Shown here: in pieces, positions 48,237 through 61,773 of the stretch | Position numbering within the stretch: position 1 is the stretch's first letter | Layout: each line of letters opens with the position of its first letter | DNA from: Salinibacter altiplanensis | Lineage (GTDB): Bacteria; Bacteroidota; Rhodothermia; Rhodothermales; Salinibacteraceae | Reading direction: 5' to 3' | NCBI RefSeq assembly: GCF_002894645.1 | Contig: NZ_NCQY01000023.1 | Coordinates: forward strand, 142,789-206,788 | Length of the DNA: 64,000 nt | Program-made: the position numbers and the translations under genes | The notes under the pieces: generated by a model | The model's database searches: none | What the model saw: the letters and a program-made list of their open reading frames with translations, nothing else | Told to the model about the DNA's origin: nothing

Positions 48237-50072
48237 ATGCACCCACCTCTCTGCCCCTCGTCTCCTCCTGTCTCGTCTCGCCACCGGACGCCGGCCCGTC
48301 CTTCTGGCTTCCACACCGCCCTCCTGGCCGTCGGACTGCTCCTCATGTCGGGCCTGATGGTCCCGCGGTCCTCCTCGGCACAGCCTGCCTCGCCCCCGGC
48401 GGTAGACGCCCTCCTCCAGAGCGACTCCAGCGCAATGATCCCGGTCGTGGAGCGCTTCGCGGAAGACCGGGATGCGCTGCGCCGCCGCTACGACGCCGCG
48501 GGGCCGACGCAATGGGCACGGATGCGCACGTTCTACAACCAGTGGCTCGACGAGCTGAACGCCGTTCGCTTTGATCCCCTCGGCGTGGAGGGACGCATCG
48601 ACCACCTGCTCCTGCGGAACGACATTCAGACGTCGCTGCAACGGCTGGACCGGACGGAGCGGCGCCACGCCGAGATGGAGCCGTACCTTCCCTTCGCCTC
48701 GACGGTCACCTCCCTCTACTACCGGTGGCGGGACGACCCATCGCTCGAGCCCCGCACCGTGGCCGACACGCTGGCTGCCCTCCGAGACACCATCAGGGCG
48801 ACCCAGAAACACCTGTCGGAGCAGTCCCGGGAGACGGAGTCGGACCGCGTCGTGGCCCACCGGGCGGCCAACAAGATTGCGGACCTCCGCGGGCATCTGG
48901 AGGAGTGGTACGCATTCTACGACGGGTACCACCCGGACTTTGCCTGGTGGGTGGAGGCGCCGTACACGGACGTCCAGGAGCAGCTGAAGGACTACCGGAC
49001 GTTTCTCCGGCGAGACATTGTGGGCGTGCCGGAGGGGGAGGAACGTCCCCTGATCGGGGACCCGATCGGGACGGAGGCGCTCGAGGCGGACCTACGGCAC
49101 GCCATGATTCCGTACACGCCCGACGCGCTGATTGAGGTGGCCGAACAAGAACTGGCGTGGGGGAAAGCGCAAATGCGACGGGCCGCCCGTGACATGGGCC
49201 ACGGGGACGATTGGCGCACGGCCCTGGAAGCGGTCAAAGCCCGTCACGTAGACCCGGGCCAACAGCCTTCCCTCGCACAAAATCTGGCGGAAGAGGCCGT
49301 GTCGTTCCTTCGGGAGCGAGACCTGGTGACGATTCCCCCGAGGGCCGAAGAGGTCTGGCGGATGCAGATGCTATCGCCCGACCGGCAAGAGGTGGCCCCC
49401 TACTTTCTGGGCGGCGAGGTCGTCCGGGTGGCCTTCCCGGCCCGAGAGATGTCGCACGAGAACAAGCTGATGAGCATTCGGGGCAACAACCGGCACTTCT
49501 CTCGGGCGGTGGTCCACCACGAGCTCATCCCGGGGCACCACCTGCAGGGCTTCATGACGGACCGGTACAACGCCCACCGCGACCTATTCTCCACGCCGTT
49601 TTGGGGCGAGGGGTGGGCCCTCTACTGGGAAATGTACCTCTGGGACCTTGACTTTCCCGAGTCGCCGGCGGACCGGATGGGCATGCTCTTCTGGCGCAAT
49701 CACCGGGCGGCACGCATCATCTTCTCGCTCCGATACCACATGGGCGAGATGTCGGCGCAGGAGGCCGTCGACTTTCTGGTGCGGGAGGTTGGGCACGAGC
49801 GGGCCAACGCAGAGGCGGAGGTGCGGCGCTCCATCATCGGCACCTATCCTCCACTGTACCAGGCCGCCTACATGCTCGGCGGCCTTCAATTCCGCGCCCT
49901 CCACGAGGAGCTCGTCACGAACGGCGACCTGTCCGACCGCGAATTCCACGACCGGATTCTTCGGGGCGGGCGCATGCCGGTCGAGATGGTACGCGCCCGG
50001 CTTCGGGGACGGCGCCTCCCGAAGGACTACGAGCCGCAGTGGCACTTCGTCGGCGCCCCAAGCAGAAAGTAG
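48237..50072 (+). CDS. Exported DUF885 (M2-like peptidase) family protein
   Basis: The 611-residue protein has an N-terminal leader (AVGLLLMSGLMVPRSSSAQP, cleavage after SSAQ-like) and matches DUF885: a helical N-half, then VVHHELIPGHHLQGFMTDRY with the HExxxxH-type zinc motif (HELIPGH) and the third ligand region FWGEGWALYWEMYLW, as in gluzincin carboxypeptidase-like members. It ends LPKDYEPQWHF. A periplasmic or outer-membrane location is likely. It probably cleaves peptides or related amides. It follows the RNA methyltransferase on the same strand with a 116 bp spacer. Confidence 0.85.
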   Translation: MHPPLCPSSPPVSSRHRTPARPSGFHTALLAVGLLLMSGLMVPRSSSAQPASPPAVDALLQSDSSAMIPVVERFAEDRDALRRRYDAAGPTQWARMRTFYNQWLDELNAVRFDPLGVEGRIDHLLLRNDIQTSLQRLDRTERRHAEMEPYLPFASTVTSLYYRWRDDPSLEPRTVADTLAALRDTIRATQKHLSEQSRETESDRVVAHRAANKIADLRGHLEEWYAFYDGYHPDFAWWVEAPYTDVQEQLKDYRTFLRRDIVGVPEGEERPLIGDPIGTEALEADLRHAMIPYTPDALIEVAEQELAWGKAQMRRAARDMGHGDDWRTALEAVKARHVDPGQQPSLAQNLAEEAVSFLRERDLVTIPPRAEEVWRMQMLSPDRQEVAPYFLGGEVVRVAFPAREMSHENKLMSIRGNNRHFSRAVVHHELIPGHHLQGFMTDRYNAHRDLFSTPFWGEGWALYWEMYLWDLDFPESPADRMGMLFWRNHRAARIIFSLRYHMGEMSAQEAVDFLVREVGHERANAEAEVRRSIIGTYPPLYQAAYMLGGLQFRALHEELVTNGDLSDREFHDRILRGGRMPVEMVRARLRGRRLPKDYEPQWHFVGAPSRK

Positions 50073-50142
50073 CACGGTGCAGGCACCACGGCCCTCGTTT
50101 TGCCAACAATCCCCTTCGTCGTTCTACAACCAAATCGGAACC

Positions 50143-50174
50143 GCCCCGCCGGGTTGATTGACCCGACGGGGCGA
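50143..50174. terminator. Bidirectional terminator between convergent genes
   Basis: CGCCCCGCCGGGTT and the near-complementary AACCCG/CGGGGCG arms (CCCGACGGGGCG) form a stem with a short loop. It lies between the DUF885 gene (stop 50072) and the beta-barrel gene (end 50202). T-tracts are weak. Confidence 0.5.
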
Positions 50175-50201
50175 AATTCCACTACAGCTCAAAAAGGCCC
50201 C

Positions 50202-50708
50202 CTACAGTGCAAAGAGCAATCCCCCAGTGATTCCGATGCGGTCCGGATTGCCAATCGTAACCTGCCCTTGAACGAAGGGCTGGAAGGAGCCGGTGTCAAA
50301 CTCAACGCCCCCGACAAGGTTGAGTCCAGTGTCGGTATCAGAGATGCCCCCCACCTCTGAGCTCGTTATTCCGAGTCCCCCTCCCGCGTACGGAGAAAAC
50401 GTCTCCTCCGTGGGAAAGATGTAGTGTGCATTCAAGTCGATCGTGTAGATTGTCACGTCCGCCCCTCCTTGGTCGTCAGCAAAGTAGTAATCGAAAGCCC
50501 CGGCTAGCTGCACCGGTTCCTCCACATCTTGAGAAAGATCGTATCGGACGTTGCCCCCGAGGGCAAATTCTTCAATGTCACCGACATCGATTGTGACACG
50601 AGGGCCGATCTCAAACCCAGAATTTGACTCTGTCTGGGCCTGTGCAGTGTACGGAAATGCAATAGTGAGAGCGAAAGCGACGGCAGCGAGAGATGCGAAG
50701 CGTTTCAT
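50202..50708 (-). CDS. Outer-membrane beta-barrel protein
   Basis: The 168-residue protein has a clear signal peptide (KRFASLAAVAFALTIAFPYT, cut after AQAQ). The mature part shows alternating hydrophobic strands ending in a hydrophobic residue (GFEIGPRVTIDVGDI, ALGGNVRYDL, QLAGAFDYYF, VTIYTIDLNAHYIF, SPYAGGGLGIT, GLNLVGGVEFDT, FQPFVQGQVTIG, RIGITGGLLFAL). The terminal Phe-Ala-Leu is typical of barrels for the BAM complex. It is small, like OmpW/OmpA-type barrels. The ATG at 50708 is preferred over an upstream one that would disrupt the leader. Function unknown. Confidence 0.82.
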   Translation of the reverse strand: MKRFASLAAVAFALTIAFPYTAQAQTESNSGFEIGPRVTIDVGDIEEFALGGNVRYDLSQDVEEPVQLAGAFDYYFADDQGGADVTIYTIDLNAHYIFPTEETFSPYAGGGLGITSSEVGGISDTDTGLNLVGGVEFDTGSFQPFVQGQVTIGNPDRIGITGGLLFAL

Positions 50709-51382
50709 CAATTTTCGTCTACGGTTATTGATGTGGTTGGCGAAGCGAAAAAACACCAATCTTTACTCCGACTGGCTGAGAAATACGAGGAGCACAAATC
50801 TCATGCTCGTCCATTTTGATCCAGCGTCCAAGGGCCCCTGCAGACAAAGCCCCCTGCTGTAGCCTCCTACGACGGGACCGAAGAGGCCCTGCCAAGAGAC
50901 TCGTCAATTCTTCTCGCCGTATCTCCCCCCGCTCGCAGGGATTTCCTTTCCGCACTCTTTCTGTCCAGGGCCGACGGAATGCCTTCTCCTGCGCTCCCAT
51001 CTGGAGCACAGAGGCTGTTTGGGAGATTGATGTTCAGCCGCGACTCAGTGGGCGAGGCTGCATAATGGCGCTCAAATGAGGCGCTGTAGTGGAACTGCCG
51101 GGCCCAATGCCGAAGCCACTTTCCGCGAGACTCACGACGGCACAGTGCCGGGAGCAAAGCGACCGAATGCTTTCAGAGTGCGACCCAGTACTCATCGGGG
51201 GGGCCACAGAACGTCCGCCAAACAGCTTCACAGCGGTTAACACTTCGGGGTCCGCGTTCGATGACCATTACGACTCCCCCGTTGCGTTTATCGATGCTCC
51301 TCGAGGCGCGTCTCCACCGATGTCTGATCGGCCGGCCTCGGGGGCTGGGGAGTGCTCTCCCCCGAACCGACCCCGCGGTAAC
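50709..51382. other. Intergenic region upstream of the first chemoreceptor
   Basis: No gene is supported, apart from the uncertain 5' end of the chemoreceptor. In-frame starts at 51089 and 51320 exist, but the extra residues they would add look unlike protein. Confidence 0.45.
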
Positions 51383-53224
51383 ATGATGACTGCACTGGTC
51401 AACTTTTTTCTACCGGACTCCCTCCCTCAGAATTCTGCCCAACGACGAAAGGCACGCCTGACGCTGGCGATCACATTTCTCATCATCGGGGCGTGCCTGG
51501 CCTACACCGGCGCCCACTACCGATGGGAGTTCTGGAGCGGGATCCCCGTGCTTCTGGGCTCGGCAGCCCTCTTGACCGGAGTGCCGATTGCCCTACGGCA
51601 GGGGGCCGCCCCGTCCCTCATGGCAAAGGCAACCGCCGTGGTGATGCTGGGCCTCATCACGCTGCTTACGATCCGGTCCGGAGGGACCGCGTCGACCTCG
51701 GCCCCCTGGTTCATGGTCGCACCACTGATTGGGCTGCTGCTGGCCGAGCAGTGGTTTGCCATTCTCCTCACGGCGGTGAGCATCGCCGAGCTGTCCATCA
51801 TCTACGCCCTCGAACTGAGCGGCCACGCCTTTCCGACGCCCATGCCCGACTCCATGGCCGGCGAGTCGCTCTTCTTCTCCTACGTCGGCCTGATCACCGT
51901 CGTCCTTCTCACCGCGCGGGTGTTCAAACAGGAACAGAGCCAGGCATTGCGGAAGGCCGAGTCCGCCGCGGAAGACGCCAAGGCCCAAAAGCAAGAGACC
52001 GAGGAAATGGCCCGCCAGCTTGAAACGCAAAAGGCGTCCGTCGAGCGGCGGGTGGAGGAGGCCACCCACGAGCTACAGGAGCAAAAGGACGCCCTCGCAC
52101 GCCACGCCACCGAGATGCTCGACGCGATGACCCGGTTTGCCGACGGGGACCTCAGTGTTCGCGTTGACACGGACCGCGACGATGAGATTGGCGATCTCTT
52201 CGATGGGTTCAACCGGGCGGTCGAGAGCGTCCGACAGACCCTTCTCTCTGTGCGCGACGCGGCCGCGGAGACCGCCCGGACAACCGAGGAGATCAGTGCC
52301 TCGTCCGAGCAGATGGCGACCGCCGCCGAGGAGCAGTCCGCCCAGGCCGAGGAGGTGGCCGCGGCCGTCGAGCAGATGAACCAGACGATTAGCGAAAACG
52401 CGCGCAGTGTCCAGCGGGCCGCCGAGGCCACCCGGGACGCCGCCCAGCAGGCCGAGCGCAGTGGCGAGATCGTCACGGAGGCGACGCAGCAGATCCATCA
52501 AATCGCCGAGGTCGCCCAGACCACGGCCGAGACCATCCAGGGCGTGGGCGACTCAAGCGCAGAGATTATCCAGATCGTCGATGCGATCGACGAGATTGCG
52601 GGGCAAACAAACCTCCTCGCCCTGAACGCGGCGATTGAGGCGGCCCGTGCCGGGGACGAGGGCGGTGGGCAGACCGGACAGGGATTTGCAGTGGTGGCCG
52701 AAGAGGTGCGGGCCCTGGCGGAGGACGCCGACGCGGCCACGACCAAAATCGAGCACAGGGTACAGGGCGCTACCGAGGACATCGAAGACGCGGTCGGCGC
52801 CGCCCGCCAAAGCAGCCAGCGGGCCCAGACGGGCCTGGAGCTCGCCGGCGAGGCCGACGACGCCCTGGACGAGGTCACCGCCGCCATCGACCGCGCCCAG
52901 CGGAAGGCTGACGAGATCGCAGCGGCCTCCGAGGAGCAGTCCACCACCAGCGACGAGATCGCCCGGAGTGTGCAGTCGATTTCAACGGCGGCCCGCGAGT
53001 CGGCGGCGGGCGTTGTGCAGGTTTCCAGCTCGGCGACGGACCTCGAAAAAACCGTCCAGCGGCTGCGGGAGAGCGTCGCGGAGTTTGAACTTGAGCAGGA
53101 CCCCCAGTCAGAATCCTCTCCTTCTGCCCCTCCCTCTCACTCCGCAACAAATCGGGACCATCCCCCCTCGCCGGACACACACGCCGACTTGCCGCCCCCT
53201 GCGATGCGCCCAGGGACCGATTGA
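51383..53224 (+). CDS. Methyl-accepting chemotaxis protein with multi-TM sensory domain
   Basis: The 613-residue receptor has about six hydrophobic segments in its N-terminal 190 residues ([98 protein letters not shown]) and no large periplasmic domain. A coiled coil, a HAMP-like segment ([20 protein letters not shown]) and the signalling hairpin follow. The hairpin tip reads [20 protein letters not shown], then [20 protein letters not shown] where most receptors have GE-x-G-x-GFAVVAxEVR, so four or five extra residues occur near the tip. It ends in a low-complexity tail. A second receptor gene follows. Confidence 0.88.
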
Positions 53225-53758
53225 GAACGGCAGCGTGACCGGACCGGCCGGTGAGCCTCTCGACTACGCGCCTCTTATCCCCCTCACCAGAGCACCTCCA
53301 CACGTCCCCACATAGAAAACGCCCGGTCCCCCCACCAGAGGGCCGGGCGTCGACGCTTCAAGGCGCCGCTCAGAGAAATGAGTTGCAATACGAGTCCCAC
53401 CAGGAACTCGGAATGCATCTCGAAGACACGCGTGGCCCCGCTACTCTAACGTCGGCCCCTCCCCATTCAGGCGTTCTTCACTTTTCGGCCGTCACAGGAC
53501 TGTCTCCTTGGTGTTGTGCCCCTTTACGGAATTGCAGGTTGTCTCTCGATTGGGACATCAGGCCGCAGACGCCTCCTGATGGGGGGAGCTACCTCACGCT
53601 GTCAATTGCCTCCGGATCCCCCCTTGCTGCCTCAGAGTGCAGAACATGGGGACTGTTGTGAACGATGTCGTCACAGTGCCCCGTCCGCGCTTAATATACA
53701 CGCCTCGGGTGACGATCACGTAACCAAGTCTGTACTTTGTAACAAAGACGTTTTTTGC
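53225..53758. other. 534-bp intergenic region between chemoreceptors
   Basis: No gene is visible apart from a terminator-like hairpin at 53320-53350. A TACTTTG element lies 20 bp before the next start. Confidence 0.45.
53320..53350. terminator. GC-rich terminator-like hairpin
   Basis: ACGCCCGGTCCC and GGGCCGGGCGT form a strong stem with CCCACCAGA-type loop. The T-tract is on the minus strand side, so function after the plus-strand chemoreceptor gene is uncertain. Confidence 0.45.
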
Positions 53759-55735
53759 ATGTGCCCGTTCGCCGATGGCGTCTCTCACGCCGACCGGTCC
53801 ACGCCAACCTCGTCCCCACAGCAATCCCCGAGCGCCCAGCCGTCCGCTCCCACCCGACGCCTGTCCGTGGCCTTCGGGACAGTCATTCTAACCGCTGGGG
53901 CCGGGACGGCAGGGGCGTTCGTAATATCGTCAGTCTGGATTAGCACCCTCGTTCTCGTCGGCTGCGGACTGCTCGCAGCCGGACTCGCAGCCCGCGTGGC
54001 GTGCCGGATCGGCGGGTCTATTCGTCGGGTCCGGCACACCCTGGAGGGCCATCAGACCGGCAACCACGACGCGCCACGACCCGGCCGTTCGAGCGACCTG
54101 CTCGGAGACGTGCACACCCGGCTCCACACCTTGGCTGATGAGGTGGAGCGGCGAGGCAAGCACATGGACGCCCTCGGCCAGATGATGACGCGCACGAGCA
54201 CGGAGGAGGACCTGCACGCGGCATTTCGGACGTTTCTGGAAGAGGTGCGTGACGTGACACGGGCCGAGTACGCAGCCCTCAGCATCTTCGACGAGGACGG
54301 CGAGATCGTGGAGTTCTTTACGCTCGGGCTCACGGACGAGCAGGAGGCGGCCATCGACCATCCCCCGGAGGGAAAGGGCCTGCTCGGACACATTCCCGAG
54401 CAACAGGTGACGCTGCGGCTCGACGACATGACCACGCATAGCGAATCGGTGGGCTTCCCCGATGGTCATCCGCCCATGCAGTCGCTACTGGCGGCGCCGA
54501 TCACGTATAAGGACCGGGCGCTCGGAAACCTTTACCTCTCGGACAAGGAGGAGGTCACAACCTTCGACGCGGCCGACGAGCGATTCGTCGAGACGGCGGC
54601 AGAGGCGGCGGCCGTCCTCATCAACGAGCGACAGTCGCGGCAGCGCAACGAGCGCACCCGACGGACGCTCCGCCGTGAGACGAGGGCGCTGGCCGACGTG
54701 CTGGGCCGGCTGGCCGAGGGAAACCTGTCGGTCGACGTTTCCCAAAACAGCGACGACGAGGACCTGGCCCGCGTGTGGACCCGACTGGACGAGACGGTCG
54801 ACAGCCTCCGGACGCTCATCGGACGCATTACCGGAGCGACCCGGGAGCTCTCCGCCACGTCCGACCAGCTGTCCGGCACGGCGGACGACATGTCGGCCGG
54901 AGCGGAGGAGCAGTCGACCCAGCTCGAGGACGTCGCCGCGGCGATGGAGGAAATGTCTCGGACCATCAGCGAGAACGCCGAAACCGTCGACCGAACGTCC
55001 CAGCGCGCCGAGGCCGCCCGGGCGGCCGCCCAGGAGAACGGCGACATCGTGTACCGGGCCATCGAGAAGATGGAGCAGGTCGGCGAGGTCGTCGAGCACT
55101 CCGCCGAGACGATCAACGAGCTGGGCTCATCCAGCGAGGAGATCGGAGACATTGTGGCGACGATCGACGACATCGCGGACCAGACGAACCTGCTCGCCCT
55201 CAACGCGGCCATCGAGGCGGCCCGGGCGGGTGAGCACGGGGCCGGCTTCGCAGTGGTGGCCGAGGAGGTGCAGGCCCTTGCCGAGCGGACGGCCCAGGCC
55301 ACCGACCGCATCGAGCAAATGATCACGTCCGTTCAGCGGGAGGCCAAGCAGGCCGTGGCCGTCATGGACGACGGCACGGAGGAGGCCCGACGGGGCATCG
55401 AGCTCGCCAACGAGGCCGGCGCCGCGCTCGACGAGATGATTGAGGACATTCGGGCCGTGGCCGGCGACATCGACGACATCGCCGCCGCTACAGAGCAGCA
55501 GTCCGCGACGAGCGAGCGGGTCTCCCAAAACATCAACGAGATTTCGACGGTGACCGCGCAAACCGCCCGGGACGTAACGGAGATCGCCCAGTCCGCCGCC
55601 GACCTGAGCGCCCTGTCCGGCCGGCTCGTCGACACGACCGACCAGTTCACCTTGGAGGCCCCGGCTCAGAAGGCATCTGCGGCCCCGTCCCCCGCCGGCG
55701 ATGGCACTGCTTCTGCCTCGATACCCACACCATAG
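53759..55735 (+). CDS. Methyl-accepting chemotaxis protein with GAF domain
   Basis: The 658-residue receptor starts [12 protein letters not shown] and has two adjacent hydrophobic segments ([20 protein letters not shown] and [20 protein letters not shown]). A cytoplasmic GAF domain lies around residues 130-295 ([56 protein letters not shown]). A HAMP-like segment follows ([20 protein letters not shown]) and then the signalling hairpin with tip [20 protein letters not shown] and [14 protein letters not shown]. This tip is canonical, unlike that of the preceding receptor. The GAF domain suggests sensing of an internal or redox signal. The tail is Pro/Ala-rich with no CheR-binding pentapeptide. 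Confidence 0.92.
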
Positions 55736-55998
55736 TATAGTGTGGATGGAATTATCCCCGTGATGGAAGACGGTGGCATTCTATTACGCTCTCCAGGGTT
55801 AGTGAATTTGATTGGCCCCTACCTCTCCGAGAATCTCATATATACGACCCACAGTACACGAACGCTGAGAACGCTTCCTCAAGCCTATTTTTTGATTATA
55901 CTTATTGATTTTAAAGGTCCTAACTTCTACAATCGGAATCCAGCTTGCTTCCACTCTTTCGGTTTTTCAGTTCTGAACTTGTACTCTCATCATCGAGC
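55736..55998. promoter_or_regulatory. AT-rich leader of the SMC-like gene pair
   Basis: This 263-bp stretch is markedly more AT-rich than the flanks (for example TATTTTTTGATTATACTTAT near 55888) and separates the receptor gene from the low-GC pair. It probably contains the promoter; no box could be fixed. It may mark one boundary of an inserted segment. Confidence 0.4.
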
Positions 55999-56181
55999 AT
56001 GATCGACAACGATTTGCTAAGAGAATTCGCCGAGACCCACCCCGACGGTCTCGAATCGAAACTCGCCCAGGCTTTCAACGAGAAACTCGACGCTTCTCGA
56101 AGTGACGCCGTGAAGCATCTCCGCGATCAACTTGAGAGCCTGCTCGAAGATCGTCTCGAATCAGAACACCCCTCTGAATAA
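55999..56181 (+). CDS. 60-residue acidic helical protein, partner of the SMC-like ATPase
   Basis: The small protein (MIDNDLLREFAETHPDGLES to LESLLEDRLESEHPSE) is strongly charged and predicted all-helical. Its stop is 2 bp before the start of the 822-residue ATPase, so the two are translated as a pair. I recognise no family. Given its size and position it could be an antitoxin-like or regulatory partner of the ATPase, but that is only inference. Base composition is lower in GC than neighbouring genes. Confidence 0.65.
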   Translation: MIDNDLLREFAETHPDGLESKLAQAFNEKLDASRSDAVKHLRDQLESLLEDRLESEHPSE

Positions 56182-56183
56182 CC

Positions 56184-58652
56184 ATGCGTCTGCTCCGCCT
56201 CCGTCCTTACTACTTCCGATGCTACGGAGAATCAGATTGGATCGAACTTGATGCCGATCTCGTCATCCTCTACGGTTCGAACGGCTTCGGTAAAACCAGC
56301 CTGGTAGAATCGATCGAGTGGCTCTTCCACGGTCGCGCGAAACGTCGTAAGCGCGGTGTCGAAGTGTATAGCAAACGCGACTATCGAAACTACTATAGGA
56401 ACGTCCACGCCCCTGAAGACGCGCCGACTTTCGTAGAAGCTGAGGTTGAAACCGCGGATGAAAACAGACACAAGATCCGTCGTGAACTCGATAACCCGAA
56501 TAAAAATGACACGAGTAACACCACCGTCATCGACGGGTCGGAGAAACCTTTCTCTACAATTGGCCTCAATGAGGATCCTGCTTTTGACCCAGTAATTCCA
56601 CAGCACTCGCTGCAGGACTTCATCTTATCCCGTCCAATCGATCGAAGAGACAAGATCAGTGCGGCATTGGGCCTGGATCCACTGATCGAGTTTGATAGAA
56701 CCTTGGATAGCACGAACCGGCGCCTGCAGCGAACACCCCCGAATAGGGTTGAACAGGCAAGAGAAGGCCTTCAGTCTGCTATCCGCAAAATGGATGAATC
56801 TGAGGATGACAAGGTTATTGCTTTACTAAAGAAATGGCGCGAGCAAGAGTTTGACCTCTCAGAGGACGAGGAAAAGCTTTTACAGGCAGCCCAAGATCTT
56901 CTCGGTACACAGGAGACTAACCGAATCACGTTGAGTGAAGAATTGACAACACACCGAGAAAAGGTTGCTGACAGGGTGTTCGATCCGACTCCAATTCGGC
57001 CTCCCTCGAACAGGGAGAATCTGCGAGAGGCCATTCAGGAATCGAAGCAGGAAATATTAGAGTCCGAGTTGAAGCAGTGTGAGGACGCACTCTCATCGTA
57101 CTTGGGAGTGGCAGCAGCAGAGTACGCGAGCGAATGCCTCTCATTCTGGAAAACTGGCCTGCAGCTCCGAGACGAAGATACCGACACTTGCCCGATGTGT
57201 GAGGCACCGACTCTTGACAAGGAGAAGCGGGAAGAAATTCGGGAACGTCTGGAAAAGACTTCAGAATTTACATCAGCGAAAAAAACGCTTCAAGATTCCG
57301 TCTCCGATTTCTCACAACGCTTGCGACGAATCTCCAGACGCATTGACGGTTTATTCCCAGGATTTCTGACTTCTCCCAACAGAGAATCGCTTGCCGATCT
57401 CATCGATGACAGAGGACTCCTGCAACCGTTTCTAACGTGTCATGACGCTTCAGAGCTCTCGATCATAAAAACAAGGGACGCACTGAGCGATCTCGCCGAC
57501 TCGATAGACGAGATTCCCGAACTGGCCAGTGATCCCGAATCAGTTCGAGAGGCAAAGGAGAGACTACTCAAGTCGGAAAAGAGAATTGAGCATGCTATTG
57601 GATCTATTTGTTCAACAGCAGAATCCTACGCGGAGGCCTATGAGAATTTGGAGGAGAAGTTAGAAGAGGTCATCGCAAGTGATGATGCCGTCAAGCAGAT
57701 AGACGCTCTGATGGAACCGCTTGATAAATGGGAGTCAGCAGAGGTCTTGGCCGAATACCACGGCTTGATGGATGAGGTCCGTGAGGCTGGACAGCGCCTC
57801 AGTGATCACCTTCAAGACAAGCAGGAAGAAAAGTTAGAAGATCGGGGAAAGGAGATCAAAGATTGGTACGGCGTGATGAATCCTGCATCCAATGTCGTCC
57901 CCAGTCGGCTTGATGCTGGAGCGGAAAGCTTGAGAATATATGCGGAGGCTTTCGACTCGGAGCTTAATGTAGCCACCGGTTTGAGTCAGTGCCAGGCAAA
58001 CACGCTTGGTCTCAGTATCCATTTTATGAGGACTTTGTCTCCCGGCAGTCCGTACAGATTTATCGTTCTGGATGACCCGGTCCAGTCGATGGATGACAAG
58101 CATTTTGAGGCTCTTTCACGCGACGTAATTGAAAGACTGCTGGACCAGGAGAACCTACAAGTCATCGTCGGTACGCACACACGCGCTCTCTCAGATAAGC
58201 TATGGAGTCTACATATCGACCAGAGGTCTAAATACCTCAGAATCTCCGACATCAGCAGGGAAGGACCGACCATCTCGAAGGAAAAAACCTTCGAAGATGA
58301 ACTCGAGAGGATAGAACACTTAGCGAAAGGGAATGAAGAAGACCGAGAAATTGCGCTTGATAGAATCAGGAATTCTACAGAGCACCTGATCGGGTTAATA
58401 TGTCGAGTGGAGGGCCACCCACTTCTAGATCCCAATGAGCACCGAACGGCAAAGCAGAAACTCTACCACTTGAGTGAGTGCCCATCTGTAAAGGCCAAAT
58501 ACATAAGCACACTGAAGGATACCATAGAATTTAGCAACTCGGCCCACCACGAATCGGAAGGTGAAAGCGTCCCCGAAGAGGGCAAAATCCAGACGCATTT
58601 GTCGACCCTTCACAGTTACGGAGACATGTTTGAGGTTCTTGAGAAAAGATAG
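56184..58652 (+). CDS. Rad50/SMC-like ATPase with zinc hook and RloC/PrrC-like C-terminus (candidate defence nuclease)
   Basis: The 822-residue protein has Walker A GSNGFGKTSL (31-40), a long coiled-coil with a CPMC zinc hook (C336, C339), an ABC-type signature LSQCQANTLGLSIHF (from 600) and Walker B FIVLDDPVQSMDD (D630, D631). It thus folds like a Rad50/SMC dimer. The last 100 residues contain R729-NST-E733 and then N785-SA-H788, an R-x3-E...N-x2-H pattern as in the C-terminal ribonuclease domains of PrrC and RloC anticodon nucleases. RNA cleavage on ATP-dependent activation would therefore fit, although the spacing to the His is longer than in PrrC. A 60-residue gene precedes it by 2 bp. 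The pair is lower in GC than its surroundings. Confidence 0.8.
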   Translation: MRLLRLRPYYFRCYGESDWIELDADLVILYGSNGFGKTSLVESIEWLFHGRAKRRKRGVEVYSKRDYRNYYRNVHAPEDAPTFVEAEVETADENRHKIRRELDNPNKNDTSNTTVIDGSEKPFSTIGLNEDPAFDPVIPQHSLQDFILSRPIDRRDKISAALGLDPLIEFDRTLDSTNRRLQRTPPNRVEQAREGLQSAIRKMDESEDDKVIALLKKWREQEFDLSEDEEKLLQAAQDLLGTQETNRITLSEELTTHREKVADRVFDPTPIRPPSNRENLREAIQESKQEILESELKQCEDALSSYLGVAAAEYASECLSFWKTGLQLRDEDTDTCPMCEAPTLDKEKREEIRERLEKTSEFTSAKKTLQDSVSDFSQRLRRISRRIDGLFPGFLTSPNRESLADLIDDRGLLQPFLTCHDASELSIIKTRDALSDLADSIDEIPELASDPESVREAKERLLKSEKRIEHAIGSICSTAESYAEAYENLEEKLEEVIASDDAVKQIDALMEPLDKWESAEVLAEYHGLMDEVREAGQRLSDHLQDKQEEKLEDRGKEIKDWYGVMNPASNVVPSRLDAGAESLRIYAEAFDSELNVATGLSQCQANTLGLSIHFMRTLSPGSPYRFIVLDDPVQSMDDKHFEALSRDVIERLLDQENLQVIVGTHTRALSDKLWSLHIDQRSKYLRISDISREGPTISKEKTFEDELERIEHLAKGNEEDREIALDRIRNSTEHLIGLICRVEGHPLLDPNEHRTAKQKLYHLSECPSVKAKYISTLKDTIEFSNSAHHESEGESVPEEGKIQTHLSTLHSYGDMFEVLEKR

Positions 58653-58731
58653 GCTTCATTCACAAACGCCGCCGCCCCCCGATCTCTCGGAAGACGACGG
58701 CGCATTTCTCCTTCGAAATTATGGCCGAACG

Positions 58732-61422
58732 TTAAGCATCAACCGTCGCGGCGCCGTCCCCGCCCGCCCCCGCGGCGTCGGCGGCCGACTCGGTGCCCGC
58801 CGGTTGCACCGCCTCGAACGTCAGGCCCTCCCCGTCGTCGCCCAGCTCGATGCGGACGGTGTCGCCGTCCGTGATCGTGCCGTCGAGCAGCGCCTGCGAG
58901 AGGCCGTTCGACACGTGCCGCTTCATGACACGCTTCAGGGGGCGGGCGCCGAAGGCGGGGTCGTAGCCACGGTCGGCGAGCCAGTCCTTGGCGCCGCCCG
59001 AAAGCGTGAGCGTCAGGTCGTGGTTCTTCGCGGCGAGCCGCTGGACGCGCCCGAACTGGATCTCGACGATCTCGCGGATGTGCTCGCGGCTGAGCGAGCG
59101 GAACATCACGATGTCGTCGATCCGGTTTAGGAATTCGGGCTTCACCTGGCGGCGCAGCATCTTGAGCACCTCTTCCTCGAGCTCCTGATGCTCGCGCTCC
59201 GAGAGGTACCCGCCCTCGACCGCGTCCATCCGCTCCGAGATTACGTCGGAGCCCATGTTCGAGGTCATGATGATGATCGTGTTCGTGAAGTCGACCGTGC
59301 GGCCCTGGTTGTCGGTGAGGCGCCCGTCGTCGAGCACCTGCAGGAGGACGTTGAAGATCTCAGGGTGCGCCTTCTCGATCTCGTCGAGCAGCACCACGGA
59401 GTAGGGCGTTCGGCGGACCGCCTCGGTCAGCTGGCCGCCCTCCTCGTAGCCGACGTAGCCGGGCGCCGCGCCGATGAGGCGGCTGGCTGTGTGACGCTCC
59501 TGGTACTCGCTCATGTCGATGCGCACCATCGCGTTCTCGTCGTCGAAGAGAAACTCGGCAAGCGTCTTCGCGAGCTCCGTCTTGCCGACGCCGGTGGTGC
59601 CGAGGAAGATGAACGAGCCGATCGGCTGGTCGCCCTCCTGCATGCCGGTGCGGCCGCGGCGGACGGCGTTGGAGACCACCTCGATGGCCTCGTCCTGCCC
59701 CACCACGCGCTCCGACAGCTCGTCCTCCATGCGAAGGAGCTTCTCGCGCTCGCTTTCCAACATCTTCGACACCGGGATGCCAGTCCAGTTGGAGACGATC
59801 TCGGCGATGTCCTCCCCGTCGACCTCCTCCTTCAGCAGCGCGCCGTCCTCCTGGATCTCTTCGAGCTTCTGGTTGGCCGCCTCGGCCTCTTCCTTCAGGT
59901 CCGGAATCTCGCCGTACTGGATTTCGGCGACCGCGTCGTACTTGCCCTCCCGCTCCAGGTTTTCGGCCTTCACGCGGAGCTCGTCGATGCGCTCTTTCGC
60001 GGAGCGGACCGTCTGGATGAGGTCCTTCTCCTCCGTCCAGCGGGCCTTCAGGGCGTCGCGCTCGTCCTCCAGGTCGGCGATCTGCCGGTCGATCTCATCG
60101 AGCTTGTCGGCCAGGTCGCCCTCGTCACGCGTTACGGCCTCGCGCTCGATTTCGAGCTGACGGATCTCGCGGTCCAACTGGTCGAGGTCGGCGGGCTTCG
60201 AGTCGATCTCCATGCGCAGGCGGGCGGCCGACTCGTCGATCAGGTCGATCGCCTTGTCCGGCAGCTGGCGGTCGGTGATGTAGCGCTCGCTGAGGTCGGC
60301 GGCGTTGATGAGGGCACTGTCGTGGATGCGCACGCCATGGTGCACCTCGTAGCGCTCCTTCAGGCCGCGCAGGATCGAGATCGTGTCCTCCACGCTCGGC
60401 TCCTCCACGAGCACCTTCTGGAAGCGGCGCTCCAGGGCGCGATCGTCCTCGATGTGCTTGCGGAATTCGTCGAGCGTCGTCGCGCCGATGGCGCGCAGCT
60501 CGCCGCGGGCGAGGGCCGGCTTGAGGATGTTGGCCGCGTCCATGGCGCCCTCCGAGGCCCCGGCCCCCACGAGCGTGTGCAGCTCGTCGATGAAGAGGAC
60601 GATCTCGCCGTCGGACTCGGACACCTCGTTGACGACCGCCTTGAGCCGGTCTTCGAACTCCCCCCGGTACTTGGAGCCGGCCAGGAGCGCCCCCATGTCG
60701 AGCGCCACGATGCGCTTCGACTGCATCGACTCCGGCACGTCGCCCTGGACGATGCGCGTGGCAATGCCCTCGGCGATGGCCGTCTTGCCGACGCCGGCCT
60801 CGCCCACGAGCACCGGGTTGTTCTTCGTGCGGCGGCTCAGAATCTGGAGCACGCGCCGAATCTCCTGCTCGCGCCCGATCACCGGGTCGATGGTGCCCTC
60901 ACGGGCCATCTCGTTCAGGTCCTGCGCAAACCGGTCGAGCGCCTCGTACCGGCTCTCGGCGTGGGGGTCGTCGGCCCCCTGCCCGCCGCGCACGTCGTCG
61001 AGCGCCTCCATGACGTGCTCCTTCGAGCCGCCCTGGTCACGCAGGGATTGGCCGATCTCGTTCTGGCCCTCCACGAGGCCGATGAGGAGGTGCTCGGTCG
61101 ACACGTACTCGTCGTCCATCACGTCTGCCTCGGCGCGGGCACGGTCGAACACCTTCTTCAGCTCCTCGCCGACGTACTGGTCACCGGCACTCGCGCCCGT
61201 CACCGTGGGCAGCGACGCCAGGGCCGCCTCGACCTCGCTGCGCAGGCGATCAACGCTCACTCCCACGCGCCGCAGGATCGACACGGCCACACTGTCGGGG
61301 GTGCTCAAGAACGCCTCCAGCAGGTGCGGGGGCTCGATGCCCTGGTGATTTTTGGACGCCGCCAGTTCCATCGCCTTTTGGACGGCCTCCTGGGCCTTGA
61401 CGGTAAATTTTTGCAGGTTCAT
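58732..61422 (-). CDS. clpB: ATP-dependent chaperone ClpB
   Basis: This 896-residue disaggregase has the full architecture: a Clp N domain (to about 145), NBD1 with Walker [10 protein letters not shown] and Walker [15 protein letters not shown], and the coiled-coil M domain (about 400-530) characteristic of ClpB. NBD2 has [18 protein letters not shown], the arginine-finger region and the C-terminal [20 protein letters not shown]. The tail is a low-complexity Ala/Gly/Asp segment ([20 protein letters not shown]), which is longer than usual and acidic, suiting a halophile. ClpB works with DnaK to resolve aggregates after stress. It is convergent with the SMC-like gene. Confidence 0.97.
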
Positions 61423-61773
61423 AGGTCAAAGTTTCGGTTGGACAAACGGCAATGGGAGTGCAGCCCCCCGCCCTAGATGGGCGTCTCTGGAGGGAATGCC
61501 ACACCGCTCACCCACCTCTGCGAACGAAAAGTGTACCAGTCGGCCACAATCTGACAGGATGGCAGAACAACGGATCATGCGTGACGGCGCGATGCGCGAA
61601 GACCGGCGGCCCTCACGAATCGCGTGTCGCGCCTCCCTCGCCTGCATTCGCGACACGATCGGTCAATTTCCGGAACCAATGACGCACTGCGTTATTACCA
61701 AGCCTGCAGTGCCCTTCGCACTGCGGCTGTGCACTCTTCGGAGGCCCATTTATCACCAATTTGACGGACTGTC
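61423..61773. other. 351-bp divergent region between clpB and phasin-like gene
   Basis: No gene. It contains a perfect 7-bp hairpin GCAGTGC-CCTTC-GCACTGC at 61706-61724. No CIRCE-like heat-shock element was seen upstream of clpB. Confidence 0.45.

Follow-up and report, generated by a model that had tools for sequence, protein, structure and literature searches.

The window analysed here is a 64,000-nucleotide stretch of Salinibacter altiplanensis DNA (contig NZ_NCQY01000023.1 of assembly GCF_002894645.1, positions 142,789 to 206,788, forward strand). It contains a compact two-gene locus, in which a short open reading frame (ORF) is followed after a gap of 2 nt by the gene of an ATP-binding cassette (ABC) ATPase with a zinc hook and a predicted C-terminal HEPN-type domain (Table 1). 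Both ORFs are present where an earlier note, made from the sequence alone, had placed them, and so are the Walker A, CPMC, ABC signature and Walker B motifs, the R729-x3-E733 pair and the residues N785 and H788 that it had listed for the ATPase. The layout it had likened to RloC also holds, with an ABC head, a zinc hook and a nuclease-type tail that is HEPN-type in the model. The locus is flanked by a methyl-accepting chemotaxis protein (MCP)-type gene and by clpB, identifications made by eye on the translated sequences. Only the two genes stand between these neighbours; no restriction gene adjoins the locus, as had been remarked before.

Table 1. Features of the two-gene locus and of its encoded ATPase, in window coordinates.
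Feature	Position	Strand	Remarks
Inserted segment, approximate extent	55691..58663		Edges from blastn against relatives with the empty site
AT-rich leader, MCP-type gene to small gene	55736..55998	+	GC 0.43
Small, putative partner gene	55999..56181	+	60 aa, ATG start; alternative TTG at 55945 gives 78 aa
ABC ATPase gene, with zinc hook and predicted C-terminal HEPN-type domain	56184..58652	+	822 aa
Walker A, residues 31-38 (GSNGFGKT)	56274..56297	+
Zinc-hook CPMC, residues 336-339	57189..57200	+	C336, P337 and C339 invariant in alignment A4
ABC signature-like LSQCQ, residues 600-604	57981..57995	+	L600, S601 and Q604 invariant in A4
Walker B ending in D630-D631	58059..58076	+	Continues DDPVQSMDD; DD in 7/7 A4 rows, not the DQ of LmuB
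Predicted C-terminal HEPN-type domain, residues 690-822	58251..58649	+	Model md3099ddf0c2b; Foldseek, VIA-align
R729	58368..58370	+	Invariant in A4
E733	58380..58382	+	Invariant in A4
H789, candidate catalytic histidine	58548..58550	+	Invariant in A4

The composition of the locus deviates from that of its surroundings, in agreement with the lower GC and the AT-rich leader described in the earlier note. The GC content of positions 55736-58652 is 0.495, as opposed to a mean of 0.649 (standard deviation 0.025, lowest value 0.587) in 582 overlapping windows of 2.9 kb over the rest of the stretch, and the GC3 of the ATPase gene is 0.54, compared with 0.81 and 0.93 for the two genes that flank the locus. 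When positions 50000-59200 were compared by blastn with the sequence next to clpB in relatives, the site proved empty in all three same-genus relatives that retain the two flanking genes (L065, L066 and L067). Their aligned MCP-type and clpB parts are separated by 200, 115 and 150 bp, respectively, as opposed to about 3 kb in the window, and no such genes lie between them. Five other relatives (L068-L072) contain clpB and are uninformative on the insertion site, because the MCP-type gene is absent from the stretch taken. The left edge of the insert was placed after the last base aligned with L067 (55690) and the right edge before the first base aligned with L066 (58664); direct repeats of at most 8 bases and inverted repeats of at most 7 bases at these edges are not convincing. 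A protein search returned a full ATPase match in only one of 13 genomes of the genus, the window's own, and a weak match with 24% identity in G001 of the same genus. Likewise, the own genome was the only one with an ATPase match among 394 genomes of a phylum sample at E 1e-10, the 393 others being negative, and the only one with a profile match among 244 genomes of the class at E 1e-40. The locus is a horizontally acquired, accessory low-GC insert, probably of recent gain.

Seven relatives of the ATPase were found on two plasmids, four contigs of metagenome-assembled genomes (MAGs) and one viral contig, in addition to one decayed copy. One of the plasmid copies is on a Nitrosospira plasmid. 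The other, on the Bradyrhizobium conjugative plasmid NZ_CP147713.1 (L004:8001-10432), is split into two ORFs in different frames and hence probably inactive, unless the split is a sequencing error; it adjoins AbiEi/AbiEii-type genes and has a recombinase gene nearby. The viral copy resides on the IMG/VR contig L006, which is classed as viral. Three of the MAG copies (L009, L010 and L011) are complete, L011 with a recombinase-like 195-aa ORF just upstream (by eye), and L012, near a contig end, is without its 5' part and has an in-frame stop before the match. The five complete relatives have 811-817 aa. We also observed a 475-aa ORF after the viral ATPase (L006:10746-12173), the start of which resembles restriction-endonuclease-like proteins by eye. 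The decayed two-gene copy in genome G572 (L041, C456:1468-2094) has an ATPase frame that stops after about 200 aligned residues.

Further searches yielded no additional whole copy. Profile searches at E 1e-60 matched two of 299 genomes from the same family as G403 (G403 itself and G572) and one of 347 in the order of G402, namely G402 itself. Viral contigs searched with a single protein gave no match and further viral scans no new full relative, and tblastn of phages with P0001 and P0004 returned nothing. Weak partial plasmid matches were excluded as relatives (one of three records in one search, five of seven in another), and L005, L007, L008 and the 20 short or partial-match loci L013-L032 were not counted as family members. 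The number of copies may exceed that found, because the scan of genome contigs used two short patterns only.

The ATPase family was compared in alignment A4, comprising seven rows (window, Nitrosospira, L006 and L009-L012), in which the relatives share 25-34% identity with the window protein, five of the six over the full length. The split Bradyrhizobium copy stands outside A4 and alignment A6; it forms two separate rows in A3, and its tail was used in the tail-profile alignment. Outside the tail, the residues invariant in A4 include H665 in addition to those of the hook, signature and Walker B in Table 1. Within the tail, R721, L738, D779, T780, F783 and H805 are invariant together with R729, E733 and H789, and R, E and H are in place in the split Bradyrhizobium tail as well. 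The earlier proposal of a conserved R/E/H set therefore stands for R729 and E733 and has to be corrected for the histidine: the position of H788 is occupied by leucine in the viral copy, and the invariant residue is H789. In place of the suggested N785-x2-H788, the actual form is N/D/A-x3-H with H789, which is preceded by F six residues ahead and by N, D, A or S four residues ahead. The complete motif reads R-x3-E-x55-57-H, with this spacing seen in six rows.

When residues 690-822 were folded alone, the model (md3099ddf0c2b) contained six helices with a pLDDT of 83.1 and a pTM of 0.78, placing R729 and E733 in the second helix and H789 in the short fifth helix. A Foldseek search of the Protein Data Bank (PDB) with this tail returned eight matches at probability 0.99-1.00, seven of which are MntA-HepT-type toxin-antitoxin or HEPN chains. 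They comprise five chains of 6m6w and 6m6u (titled MntA-HpeT) and 7bxo (titled toxin-antitoxin), 5yep (SO_3166, called a HEPN toxin in PMC4621449), 2hsb (HEPN protein AF_0298) and 1wwp, whose title is uninformative. VIA-align also ranked AF_0298 first (Z 11.5, root-mean-square deviation 3.2, 118 aligned residues), and nine of its first 15 rows were related to HEPN, toxin-antitoxin or nucleotidyltransferase proteins, five had uninformative titles and one was LinB. In a search of solved structures by sequence, none of the matches listed had its best stretch in the tail. As modelled, the last 133 residues are a HEPN-type helical bundle with the same fold as HepT of the HepT-MntA system. However, HepT is a free-standing toxin with a nucleotidyltransferase partner, whereas the bundle here is fused to an ATPase, and the small partner is of no recognised family. 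The full-length ATPase model, weaker than that of the tail (pLDDT 72.2, pTM 0.42), showed long helices around the hook.

With its Rad50-like ABC head, coiled coil with a CX2C hook and C-terminal R-x3-E...H, the ATPase resembles RloC, which is likewise rarely tied to restriction genes. RloC is described with the motif R-X3-E-X36-52-H and a length of 658-897 aa (Davidov and Kaufmann, 2008, PMC2610378), a range that includes the 822 residues of the window protein. The same source reports that replacement of R692, E696 or H737 abolished activity and that a serine often precedes the catalytic histidine. As controls, we used seven RloC-type proteins, P0017 and, with it as query, six plasmid relatives taken from 134 plasmid records with a match, which were called RloC-type from their layout and family, none being an experimentally studied RloC. 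All seven carry CPFC and R-x3-E, followed by 51-59 residues to a histidine preceded by H or S. The long E-to-H spacing, previously put forward as a sign of distinctness, does not support that view: X55-57, just outside the published X36-52, lies inside the X51-59 spanned by these controls. We regard H789, not H788, as the candidate residue because, in the control alignment, the histidine of SH in L051 lines up with the latter H of HH, in agreement with the published remark on the preceding serine. Moreover, the tail profiles of the family (eight rows, including the Bradyrhizobium tail) and of the seven controls align R-on-R, E-on-E and H-on-H, with a score that, in each direction, was reached by only one of 200 control profiles with shuffled columns. 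P0017 itself (L045:601-2940 in G010) is an AAA_13 protein of 780 aa with CPFC and R-x3-E...H, the one such protein of the genus, and adjoins a 594-aa coiled-coil, SbcC-like ORF (by eye).

PrrC, the anticodon nuclease of EcoprrI, also combines an ABC head with a C-terminal R-x3-E...H nuclease, and its nuclease domain, like that of RloC, is classed as HEPN (PMC3710099). However, PrrC is described as a protein of 341-416 aa without a hook and invariably linked to type Ic restriction-modification (PMC2610378), which differs from the length, the CPMC hook and the neighbours of the window ATPase; the match to the PrrC head is weak (24.4 bits, residues 625-675). Other ABC-HEPN proteins, such as APECO1_4465 and ERFG_01251, are also described as an ABC ATPase with a C-terminal HEPN domain, in some cases in prophages (PMC3710099); the window ATPase may belong with them.

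The heads were placed by a tree of head segments, which resolved three clades: the window family (96/99), the RloC-type controls (97/94) and LmuB of Lamassu (99/98). The branching order of the window-family clade, the RloC-type clade and four DD-type ATPases without the tail is not settled. Twenty-four of 25 rows, including six LmuB heads, entered the tree, ABC_L086 being dropped for a misfit to the Walker B pattern; Walker A was found by pattern in six rows only, and the first 58 residues were taken in the others. On this basis, separation of the heads from LmuB is well supported, and the tree is compatible with kinship to RloC as well as with independence from it.

The tree bears on the idea that the locus is a reduced Lamassu or ABC-three-component (ABC-3C) system, with an LmuB-like ATPase, a miniature middle component and a fused effector instead of LmuA. 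Pfam placed AAA_23 and AAA_15 above cut-off in the window ATPase, and the best PADLOC family was LmuB (E 2.4e-31), which led for all seven members tested here, as opposed to PDC-S06 for all seven controls (best E 1.7e-163). Foldseek with the full model listed Rad50, SMC and the Lamassu LmuACB chains 9hqu and 9uxh. LmuB is itself described as Rad50-like and often hook-bearing (PMC10586767), and the small gene occupies the position of LmuC immediately upstream of the hook ATPase. However, seven same-class LmuB proteins scored 376-488 bits with the LmuB profile, compared with about 107 for the window ATPase, and the match is not specific, because RloC-type controls match the profile too (P0017 at 7.6e-21). 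The six LmuB examined have DQ in Walker B, an E-to-Q form described as general in LmuB (PMC10586767), in contrast to DD here, and their upstream ORF has 156-165 aa with a 4-nt overlap, as opposed to a 54-66-aa partner. Furthermore, the effector-type domain is in cis and there is no LmuA gene. We rejected Lamassu membership on the bit scores and the tree, and consider a reduced Lamassu system improbable. CxC ABC systems (Pbe) are also described to include a rapidly evolving small protein (PMC10853773); PbeC profiles matched members of the window family weakly (best E 5e-10), and the window copy has none of the other Pbe genes next to it.

Two hook ATPases without the HEPN tail were also observed. 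One, in the same genus (L002/L082, G001:C10:40883-43009), has 720 aa and follows a 193-aa ORF, which it overlaps by 4 nt; this looks like an ABC-three-component (Lamassu-like) operon. The other, L080 in G711, is a DD-type protein of 786 aa, the gene of which shares 14 nt with a 239-aa ORF ahead of it.

A two-gene system had also been suggested, and our survey of the neighbourhoods bore this out: a small ORF lies directly upstream in all eight copies in which the ATPase start is present. The small ORF overlaps the ATPase start by 20-29 nt in L003, L004, L006, L009, L010 and L011, as opposed to the gap in the window, and the partner proteins have 54-66 aa. In leave-one-out profile searches, the small ORFs of L003, L004, L009, L010 and L011 were each the best ORF of their own locus (E 2e-7 to 6e-21), the strongest of these values leaning on the close pairs L004/L009 and L010/L011. 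The small gene was also found in the decayed G572 copy by a five-row profile (E 2.7e-8), in an apparently disturbed frame (by eye). The count of eight is based on homology in six copies, on rank plus position in the window and on position alone in L006. The comparison of L010 with L011 gave dN 0.27 and dS 0.94, and that of L004 with L009 pN 0.19 and pS 0.75; because synonymous exceed non-synonymous differences, the small gene is translated and under purifying selection, at least in these pairs, the closest among the relatives.

No convincing name for the small proteins emerged from the family libraries, which gave weak matches only (PDGLE, E 0.009; phrog_4494, E 0.009), or from NCBIfam, with three weak single-member matches. 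In none of the seven RloC-type controls does a small ORF run into the ATPase start; in three plasmid controls other ORFs end 50-78 nt upstream of the ATPase, their homology to the partner not having been compared. Among openly licensed PMC papers, we found no ABC-HEPN protein described with such a small partner, which does not show that none exists. We regard it as very probable that the small protein is a functional partner of the ATPase. By sequence, the small partner is the new element with respect to the RloC design, and the head clade and the partner together set the locus apart.

On the best reading, the large protein belongs to a separate lineage of RloC-like ABC-HEPN ribonucleases that is rare, mobile and equipped with a dedicated partner. 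By analogy with RloC, we put the probability that the locus is a mobile two-gene anti-phage immune module, in which ABC ATPase, HEPN ribonuclease and partner would work like RloC, at about 0.7. The ribonuclease activity and anti-phage role that would make the large protein an ABC-HEPN immune ribonuclease are likewise probable. In such a module, the Rad50-like ATPase would dimerise through its heads and the CPxC zinc hook, and the effector, a C-terminal HEPN-type metal-independent ribonuclease, would be carried by the ATPase itself. At rest, head and hook would keep the nuclease silent. RloC is described as having an internal switch, in which an ATPase is coupled to a putative sensor of DNA breaks, and as being activated by DNA-break inducers (PMC3874168); by the same logic, DNA breaks or ends such as those arising in phage infection could trigger an ATP-driven rearrangement that frees the nuclease. 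The freed nuclease might cut RNA by means of R729, E733 and H789, the likeliest site being the anticodon loop of host tRNA, although the chances that the substrate is tRNA are about even. RNA cleavage would stop translation and with it phage growth, in the manner of a suicide switch. The 54-66-aa upstream protein would be the dedicated partner, translated first from a shared message, and would probably bind to the ATPase, either to inhibit it or to serve as an adaptor for the trigger.

Several results weigh against this interpretation. The AAA_13 family (PF13166) is below cut-off in the window copy (28.7 versus 36 bits) and was passed by only one of six rescanned relatives, that of Nitrosospira (42.2 bits), as opposed to 154.5 bits for the same-genus control P0017. 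The hhalign probability between the tails of the family and the RloC-type tails was only 3-7% (P 0.016 and 0.005). The alignment behind the tail model has only six rows, none of the Foldseek matches of the tail in the PDB fell under E 0.001 (best 0.03), and a BFVD structure search with the tail gave a best E of 0.25 with no row named HEPN. In VIA-align, helical bundles below about Z 13 may share arrangement only, and middling Z values arise by chance. Nor is there an R four to six residues before H789 in A6, as the Rx4-6H motif would have it, the RloC/PrrC-type R-x3-E...H being found instead; Rx4-6H is described as common in HEPN domains and not required (PMC3710099). The small ORF of the window ranked first of 384 ORFs at E 0.072, which is not significant alone, and that of the viral L006 ranked third in its locus at E 1.3 and was unrecognised. 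Finally, ORFs that look SbcD- and SbcC-like by eye come after the ATPase in L012, an arrangement that would fit a function in repair.

The likeness to RloC could also mean that the ATPase is a genuine, diverged RloC and that the small ORF is an accessory found upstream in this subgroup by coincidence. The shared layout and CX2C hook, the spacing within the control range, the tail profiles in register and a length within the RloC range would all fit, as would the unsettled order of the clades and the one relative above the AAA_13 cut-off. We nevertheless regard this as rather unlikely, given the separate head clade, the low AAA_13 score of the window copy next to that of P0017, the different leading PADLOC families and the lack of a small ORF overlapping the ATPase start in all seven controls.

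Another explanation would be a DNA-repair ATPase of the SbcC/Rad50 type, the HEPN bundle of which is non-catalytic and binds protein or RNA. It draws on the Rad50 and SMC matches, on an SbcC-like phrog_77 match of the ATPase (3.7e-23) and on the ORFs that follow the L012 copy, and some HEPN domains are indeed thought to be non-catalytic (PMC3710099). However, the gene is accessory, rare in genus and class and low in GC, and its family occurs in mobile contexts; A4 shows no variation at the residues that correspond to the RloC triad, and there is no SbcD/Mre11-like gene beside the window copy. A repair role of this kind is therefore very unlikely.

The immune-ribonuclease reading can be taken further, to a third ABC-HEPN immune ribonuclease lineage that is independent of both RloC/PrrC and Lamassu and couples a Rad50-like sensor and a ribonuclease in cis with an obligate, translationally coupled subunit of 54-66 aa. 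This stronger version is tentative, with odds that we place somewhat below even. If true, the locus would amount to a toxin-antitoxin pair in which a DNA-sensing machine acts as the toxin. Were the lineage independent, the named families would understate how often ribonucleases have become attached to Rad50-like sensors, and it would be worth searching for small ORFs ahead of ATPases of this type. In RloC, the enzyme's own head and hook are credited, in the accounts consulted, with keeping its nuclease off; if an otherwise similar enzyme had a separate subunit dedicated to it, silencing and triggering could be separated genetically.

As for the surroundings of the two genes, the leader contains a single weak sigma-70-like match at 55905-55933, and the three promoter-like sites within 55500-58800, with 2.1 expected, give no promoter evidence. 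At the gathering threshold, Rfam gave no match in 53000-61500. Upstream, positions 51089-53224 and 53516-55735 hold two MCP-type ORFs in tandem (by eye); the second, directly after which the insert lies, includes a GAF-like part.

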